In this document: piece by piece, positions 8,447 through 9,624 of the stretch
Position numbering within the stretch: the stretch's first letter is position 1
Layout of the letters: the number at the start of each line of letters is the position of its first letter
Assembly: GCA_003224235.1 (NCBI GenBank)
Contig: QHYU01000139.1
Coordinates: 1 to 55,448, forward strand
Direction: 5' to 3'
DNA: 55,448 bases
Source: Acidobacteriota bacterium
GTDB taxonomy: Bacteria > Acidobacteriota > Terriglobia > Acidiferrales > UBA7541
Program-made: the position numbers and the translations under genes
Notes under the pieces: generated by a model
The model's database searches: none
What the model was told of the DNA's origin: nothing
Seen by the model: the letters and a program-made list of their open reading frames with translations, nothing else

Positions 8447-8524
8447 TGTAGGGCCACGGATTGCCCCGCGTTGGGAGCCACCGAATCGTGCGCACGGCAT
8501 GGAGGGCCACGGCATGCCGTGCCC
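8447..8524. repeat. Degenerate copies of a GGGCACGGC palindromic repeat
   Basis: The 134-base spacer between dinB and prmC contains a palindrome GGGCCACGGC-AT-GCCGTGCCC (8504-8524, one extra C in the left arm) and a more decayed relative AGGGCCACGGATTGCCCC (about 8452-8467). The same element occurs inside prmC at 8863-8882. It looks like a REP-type dispersed palindrome. Confidence 0.6.
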
Positions 8525-8529
8525 TGACA

Positions 8530-9570
8530 CTACAATTTTTCGGCGGCAATGACGCGCGGGATACCAGCCAGATCGTTGGTGACGCCCACATTTGTCCAGG
8601 CGTATGAATCGAACAGCGGGCGCACGCGGTCAAGCGCGTTGTAGCCTATCTCCAGCACTAGGGTTCCACCGCTGCCGAGCAATTTGTCGGCTTGACCGAT
8701 TAAAAGGGCGTAAATCTCGCAGCCCTGCTCGCCGGCAAACAACGCCTGCGCGGGTTCGTGTTCGCGAACTTCACGAGGCAACAACCCCGCTTCGCTCCGG
8801 CCCACGTAGGGCGGATTGCTCACGATGACGTGGAAGCGGGGCAACATTGCGGGCGGGCGGAAGGGCACGGCGTGCCGTGCCCCTACGTTGGTGGAGGGCG
8901 GGAGTTCGCTCCGGCCTTTGGAAAGCGGCGGCAAGCGGCCGCTTTCCAAAGCTCCAAGCAGGTTGCACTGCACGAACTGGATGCGCTGGGCGACGCCGTT
9001 GCGGACAGCGTTGCGCCGCGCCACGGCCAATGCCGCCGATGATATGTCTGTGGCGACAACGACAGCCTCGGGCAGCTCGTGCGCCAGCGCCACAGCCAGG
9101 CAGCCCGAGCCGGTGCCCACATCGGCGATGCGCAGCCCTGCGCCGTACATTGCCGCGTCTAACGCTGCCCGTGTGCCGGTTCGAGAACCTTCGGCGCGGT
9201 CCTCGGTCATGCCCGCGCCCGTCCAGCTACTGTCCTGGCCCTGTCCCAGTCGGGCAAGCGCCACTTCAATGACGTGCTCGGTCTCTGGTCGCGGGATCAG
9301 CACATCGGGAGTGACTTCAAACTCCAGCCCCCAGAATTCCTGCCGCCCGGTCAGATACTGCGTGGGCACGCCAGCAATGCGGCGCACGACCAGATGCAAA
9401 TAGTGTTCGACTTTGCCCGGGTCGAGAACCTCCTCATGGCGGGAGTAGAGCCAAGCACGCTCGCAACCCAGCACGTGCATCAGCAACAGCTCGGCGGCGA
9501 GCGTATGCGATGGCACGCGCCCCTCGCGCAGCCGGTTCATGCCTTCTTTTAATGTCGCGCGGACATCCAT
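8530..9570 (-). CDS. prmC: Peptide chain release factor N5-glutamine methyltransferase PrmC/HemK
   Basis: 346 residues from the ATG at 9570 (MDVRATLKEG, the usual N-terminus); a GTG at 9612 would add 14. It methylates the Gln of the GGQ motif in release factors; its substrate gene prfA is immediately upstream. Visible motifs: AELLLMHVLGCERAWLY in the N-terminal helical domain, IPRPETEHVIE, the SAM loop IADVGTGSGCLAVAL and the catalytic NPPY. The family is usually about 280 residues. The extra length comes from two insertions: about 35 residues between IEVALARLGQG and RIADVGTG, and about 34 residues just before FHVIVSNPPY. The second is encoded by two palindromic repeats (8863-8882 and 8916-8951). 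The reading frame is intact through both. Confidence 0.93.
   Translation of the reverse strand: MDVRATLKEGMNRLREGRVPSHTLAAELLLMHVLGCERAWLYSRHEEVLDPGKVEHYLHLVVRRIAGVPTQYLTGRQEFWGLEFEVTPDVLIPRPETEHVIEVALARLGQGQDSSWTGAGMTEDRAEGSRTGTRAALDAAMYGAGLRIADVGTGSGCLAVALAHELPEAVVVATDISSAALAVARRNAVRNGVAQRIQFVQCNLLGALESGRLPPLSKGRSELPPSTNVGARHAVPFRPPAMLPRFHVIVSNPPYVGRSEAGLLPREVREHEPAQALFAGEQGCEIYALLIGQADKLLGSGGTLVLEIGYNALDRVRPLFDSYAWTNVGVTNDLAGIPRVIAAEKL
8863..8882. repeat. GGGCACGGC palindrome inside prmC
   Basis: Perfect inverted repeat with 9-base arms, GGGCACGGC (8863-8871) and GCCGTGCCC (8874-8882), around a GT centre. On the coding strand it is read as part of NVGARHAVP. Related copies lie at 8447-8524. 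Confidence 0.75.
8916..8951. repeat. 14-bp perfect inverted repeat inside prmC
   Basis: CTTTGGAAAGCGGC (8916-8929) and GCCGCTTTCCAAAG (8938-8951) around an 8-base loop. It is 33 bases from the GGGCACGGC palindrome, and both lie in the same non-conserved insertion of PrmC. It would form a strong hairpin in the mRNA. Confidence 0.8.
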
Positions 9571-9624
9571 CGCAAGTGGCCTGTGACTCGCGCTGCAGGG
9601 TTCGTAAGACACAGGGAATCCGGC

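Follow-up and report, generated by a model that had tools for sequence, protein, structure and literature searches.

A GTAG-tagged REP translated within a variable loop of PrmC and the apparent turnover of its occupants

The gene for the essential translation enzyme PrmC, the release factor glutamine methyltransferase, in this acidobacterial genome carries a short dispersed palindrome, a GTAG-tagged REP, within its reading frame. We consider it highly probable that this REP was inserted in frame into a disordered loop of PrmC, where it is translated and tolerated, and that the same loop has been entered recurrently in relatives, with its occupant apparently replaced. The window, by which we mean the whole stretch of 55,448 nucleotides that was analysed, contains the following features.

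8530–9612, minus strand: prmC, an open reading frame with Pfam matches to PrmC_N and a methyltransferase domain and a PDB match to HemK/PrmC; it carries the insertion
8836–8958, minus strand: variable loop of PrmC, residues 219–259, as placed by loop lengths in relatives and by pLDDT
8863–8886, minus strand: GTAG-tagged REP encoding VGARHAVP; on the coding strand the tag (plus-strand CTAC, 8883–8886) precedes the palindrome at 8863–8882
8901–8912, minus strand: third small hairpin, GGAG-TTCG-CTCC, between the other two, from the coding-strand fold
8916–8951, minus strand: hairpin with 14-bp arms encoding most of LESGRLPPLSKG, in the same loop; no dispersed copies found in the host genome
8501–8524, plus strand: degenerate REP copy between dinB and prmC, by sequence match (one mismatch in the core, tag GGAG)
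8448–8471, plus strand: possible relic of a decayed REP, with 71% identity to the copy at 8501–8524 by sequence comparison

The prmC gene and its palindromes

The minus-strand frame at 8530–9612 is open over 360 residues. Its product has the features expected of a PrmC/HemK protein, namely the N-domain, the methyltransferase domain and an NPPY motif, and its top match in the PDB is E. coli HemK (2b3t). The variable loop follows strand E211–215 and a short helix and precedes strand E260–265, which leads directly into NPPY at residues 266–269; VGARHAVP occupies residues 243–250. The original prediction had placed two palindromes here, just before NPPY and with the frame intact, and this arrangement is confirmed. 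From the GTG motif to NPPY, the host PrmC counts 100 residues, that of the same-genus genome G088 (groundwater MAG NC_groundwater_989, by sequence match) 76, and those of the shortest family members, like those of the outgroups L211–L213, 66, so that the predicted insertion of 34 residues corresponds to the net gain in the host. In an AlphaFold model built with 30 sequences (mean pLDDT 86.4), pLDDT falls below 50 at loop residues 234–239 and 241–254 and is mostly above 90 in the core, and most of the loop is accordingly predicted to be disordered. The first variable loop, which precedes the GTG motif (9139–9240), is 20 residues longer than that of G088 and also has low pLDDT.

The first palindrome, GGGCACGGC-GT-GCCGTGCCC, has 9-bp arms and lies at 8863–8882. 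Allowing up to three mismatches, it has four matches in the window, against a mean of 0.01 in shuffled sequences. In the 4.57-Mb host genome, a draft assembly of 237 contigs, the same threshold gave 40 forward and 42 reverse matches, compared with 4 and 3 for a reversed control, and these near-copies occupy 43 distinct places, which is modest by the standards of REP families. The palindrome is thus dispersed, as had been proposed. We examined 36 of the 43 places, the other seven all having three mismatches. GTAG exactly abuts the palindrome in 23 of them, at one end only in 22 and at both ends in one, and an exact GTAG is missing from the other 13; in the relative G029 it abuts the palindrome in 19 of 21 sites. 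The chance expectation is about 0.5% per site. With a core of 20 bp, extending to 28–30 bp in relatives, the element falls within the 20–40 bp range of GTAG REPs. The palindrome in PrmC is a GTAG-tagged REP.

The peptide was predicted to be a direct read-through of the palindrome. All 11 places in the host genome that could encode VGARHAVP do so in REP codons, which makes the peptide a read-through of the DNA; on the same count, VGARHAVP as a peptide module is ruled out. A Pfam scan covered 30 of the 48 listed open reading frames that span a REP, 20 of them over 18 of the 36 host sites and 10 from G029. Among these 30, a REP lies inside a recognised protein only in PrmC and in a host asparaginase; in the others, any recognised domain lies beside the REP. 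In the asparaginase, an Asparaginase_2 gene (L134; G000:C52:9878–9897), the REP is read in the same frame as VGARHAAS, at residue 316 within a domain match spanning 77–381.

The second palindrome, CTTTGGAAAGCGGC-8 nt-GCCGCTTTCCAAAG at 8916–8951, is a real hairpin within prmC, but it is not a dispersed one. Its arm is no commoner in the host genome than a control (23 and 19 matches against 21 and 26), and 28 other near-matches, inspected as loci, have no matching hairpin partner, which rules it out as a dispersed repeat in this genome. The description of two dispersed palindromes was therefore half right. Likewise, the proposal of a repeat insertion tolerated as a loop holds for the REP, a dispersed repeat placed in frame within an added segment that is predicted to lack structure, and not for the second hairpin. 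An exact 12-bp direct repeat, TTCGCTCCGGCC, occurs at 8791–8802 and 8905–8916. Translated as GRSE from the coding strand, it has one copy in the inserted loop and the other past NPPY; it is possibly a small duplication or due to chance.

The same loop in relatives

Of 89 genomes of the family (Acidobacteriota, Ca. Acidiferrales), 85 gave a PrmC-like match, and the loop was read in 79 PrmC copies, two of them from G081. Those left out had weak matches (G011, G017, G058, G069, G074 and G087) or were split over two contigs (G037). A core REP match with up to three mismatches occurred within PrmC in 14 of the 79 copies, in every case in the variable loop; elsewhere in the 79 open reading frames there was none, and the flanking DNA held seven in 120,562 bases. 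The carriers are the host (G000), G070 of genus g12, and twelve genomes of genus g2 (G001, G007, G008, G016, G018, G020, G021, G028, G029, G030, G034 and G036). G036 is, by sequence match, Ca. Acidiferrum typicum RYN_23 (Acidobacteriota, Terriglobia, Ca. Acidiferrales). The loops of many other relatives have neither a REP nor a hairpin.

Lineage-specificity was borne out only in part by these comparisons. The REP is absent from the loop of the same-genus G088 and of the outgroups L211–L213, although G088 is too diverged to be usable as an exact empty site. However, other genera hold REPs in the same PrmC loop, which points to a recurrent event rather than a single lineage-specific accident. 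Within g2, the REP starts five residues after an LL pair in 6 of the 12 carriers, and in most of the others within 3–6 residues. Decayed REP relics in G003, G019 and G014, and a GTAG lacking the palindrome in G009 and G010, also start five residues after LL. Given this shared starting point of REPs, relics and bare GTAGs, we take genus g2 to have had one ancestral insertion, probably followed by decay and loss.

A PrmC tree of the 79 rows, built by a quick method with the loops removed, is only moderately resolved, since 23 of its 76 inner branches were starred. On this tree, G000 groups with the REP-free G088, and G070 lies inside g12. By parsimony, the presence of the REP requires at least nine changes in all, at least two of them outside g2, a count in which gain and loss are not distinguishable. 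As judged from sequence, this distribution suggests at least three placements of a REP, in the host genome, in G070 and in the ancestor of g2.

Across the phylum sample, the REP pattern was patchy, occurring in 12 of 396 genomes, and outside the family none of six readable PrmC genes from REP-bearing genomes, all with short loops, held a REP there. One distant REP-rich genome (L257; G347:C40) has a long extra PrmC segment in the first variable loop, not the second. PrmC was not found in the g2 genomes G022, G023 and G025, which are 77–90% complete, G025 having 32 exact REP copies; missing contigs or a real loss may account for this.

Turnover of the occupant and competing explanations

To compare the REP in prmC with the rest of each genome, three stem subtypes were counted across the 89 family genomes, setting aside the prmC copy itself. 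The copy in G018 was set aside even though the exact pattern does not match it, and the dominant subtype there is unchanged. In 13 of 14 carriers, G016 being the exception, the subtype in prmC is the most frequent one in the genome. Permutation of this match gave 6e-5, 9e-4 without three sister genomes, and 0.008 for a thinned set of g2 alone, shared ancestry being partly retained in these values, and the match is partly owed to shared ancestry. The stems themselves were compared in 15 distinct loop repeats, the relics of G003 and G019 included. Stem cells pair in 85.6% of cases, compared with 80.3% in shuffles, and 16 have changed on both sides, compared with 6.5; neither statistic was reached by any of 500 shuffles, and structures slid along the sequence pair at only 30–49%. 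Together, the subtype match and the complementary stem changes suggest recurrent insertion plus in-place replacement in the PrmC loop. Undisturbed copies decay, so perfect copies that match the local pool further suggest replacement by fresh REPs.

We propose that a short, non-autonomous GTAG REP would enter, in frame, the loop that joins core strands three and four of the methyltransferase domain, and would then be translated as VGARHAVP. Its tolerance would follow from the nature of the loop, a disordered extension that leaves the NPPY motif of the active site untouched; here the position is seen directly, the disorder is predicted, and the tolerance is inferred. The loop would act as a recurrent landing site, entered at least three times in Ca. 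Acidiferrales, once in the ancestor of the large genus g2. In g2, the abundant subtype of each genome may later have displaced the original copy or overwritten it where it stood, through re-insertion or gene conversion, as the subtype match and the complementary changes in both arms would indicate.

It is possible, though on balance doubtful, that g2 underwent one insertion and no replacement, the prmC copy and the dominant subtype having been inherited together so that their match reflects shared descent. The common position relative to LL (five residues in 6 of 12, most others within 3–6) and the sister pairs with a common subtype fit such inheritance, and two changes of subtype suffice to account for the twelve g2 rows. 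However, the change from a GCAGC to an ACGAT stem comprises paired changes at four positions with the outer arms unchanged, an outcome unlikely by single mutations, and the permutation restricted to thinned g2 still gave 0.008.

We give similarly limited credence to the idea that the loop is unconstrained filler, collecting any low-complexity or repeated DNA, and that REPs enter it with no site preference. In its favour, other kinds of repeat are found there. Heptanucleotide tandem repeats of the CTCGCCA or CACGAGT kind are translated right before FDLIVSNPPY, in the REP-accepting loop, in G046, G071, G077, G012, G072, G084, G016 and G030 (loci L067, L109, L063, L085, L071, L074, L056 and L076, in the same order), spanning genera g2, g6, g12 and g13, and G004 and G057 have other palindromes in the same loop; the enlarged first variable loop of the host PrmC is also in keeping with filler. 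Against it, REPs recur in this loop with no core match elsewhere in the 79 PrmC frames, and in the host genome only one other REP lies inside a recognised domain (18 of 36 sites scanned).

A further explanation, which we find quite improbable, is that a single ancient REP has retained its palindrome because selection maintains an mRNA hairpin that adjusts the translation or stability of the prmC message, the subtype differences being compensatory mutations. The coding-strand fold of the loop region is indeed strong, with three hairpins and a free energy of −57.3 kcal/mol against a shuffle mean of −40.0 (z −4.8), and the complementary stem changes and the LL-anchored start of half of the g2 REPs (6 of 12) also speak for it. 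Yet a REP or hairpin is missing from the loop in many relatives, copies have decayed to relics in G003, G019 and G014, the subtype tracks the REP pool of the genome in 13 of 14 cases, and the REPs of G000 and G070 lie elsewhere in the loop and apart on the tree. An assembly artefact or a chance palindrome is next to inconceivable: the 237-contig host assembly is a draft, but the frame is intact in a full-length PrmC, GTAG-tagged copies are many, and independent assemblies of relatives show the same pattern.

Relation to known elements and mobilisation

GTAG REPs are described as short palindromes with GTAG at one end, dispersed and mostly intergenic, and sometimes lying in frame in conserved genes (Di Nocera et al. 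2013, PMC3733652). The PrmC element resembles them in its terminal GTAG, short palindrome, dispersal and in-frame intragenic copy. The REP-bearing genes in that study belong mainly to DNA repair, and in two Xanthomonas species recB is hit at about the same position (PMC3733652); the main text of the study makes no mention of prmC, hemK or methyltransferase. Unlike in those cases, the REPs described here occupy a single loop of a single translation enzyme in several genera, with a subtype that follows the REP pool of the genome. Rickettsia palindromic elements, of 105–146 bp, are likewise found in frame in conserved proteins, and a guanylate kinase bearing one is active (PMC2229807). The element in the host PrmC and asparaginase works like these in being inserted in frame in conserved genes, but it is not one of them, being set apart by its length of 24–28 bp and its GTAG tag.

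The main text of the RepRanger paper contains neither "intragenic" nor "prmC", and a literature search, to which subscription papers were mostly inaccessible, found no report of REPs at the PrmC loop. Intragenic GTAG REPs are thus already published; what appears to be new is the repeated occupation, in several genera, of the same orthologous loop in a conserved translation enzyme, together with the apparent turnover of the REP that occupies it. A single orthologous site in REP-bearing, decayed, GTAG-only and empty states allows insertion, decay and replacement to be compared directly, and the PrmC case also illustrates how much selfish DNA can be taken up by a translation enzyme that is widely conserved. 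More tentatively, the loop might be a living recorder, a preferred landing site in an essential gene, repeatedly overwritten by whichever REP subtype is active at the time, either by gene conversion or by single-strand re-insertion where a GTAG has been retained. If this conjecture were true, comparing the loop between species would reveal the past of REP families and would serve to assay REP mobility in vivo.

The spread of REPs is still described as poorly understood (PMC8266576). In the same work on the transposase TnpA_REP, or RAYT, group 3 REPs consist of GTAG and, after it, a short perfect palindrome (PMC8266576). The PrmC element has the same layout and, from this anatomy alone, could be mobilised by a RAYT HuH transposase acting on single-stranded DNA; unlike in group 3, no cognate transposase can be assigned to it. 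Matches to PF01797 (RAYT) number three in the host and 29 across nine of ten other genomes. In these 11 genomes we sought a RAYT partner for the PrmC REP and found none convincing, a REP lying within about 1.5 kb at only 2 of the 32 RAYT loci. G044 has 21 exact REP copies, yet no PF01797 match. A position next to the cognate RAYT is not required of every REP family (PMC3733652). In the host genome, one RAYT gene (L048; G000:C222) adjoins a different repeated sequence, two copies of which read KAHRQECLCY, and this repeat may be the cognate of that RAYT.
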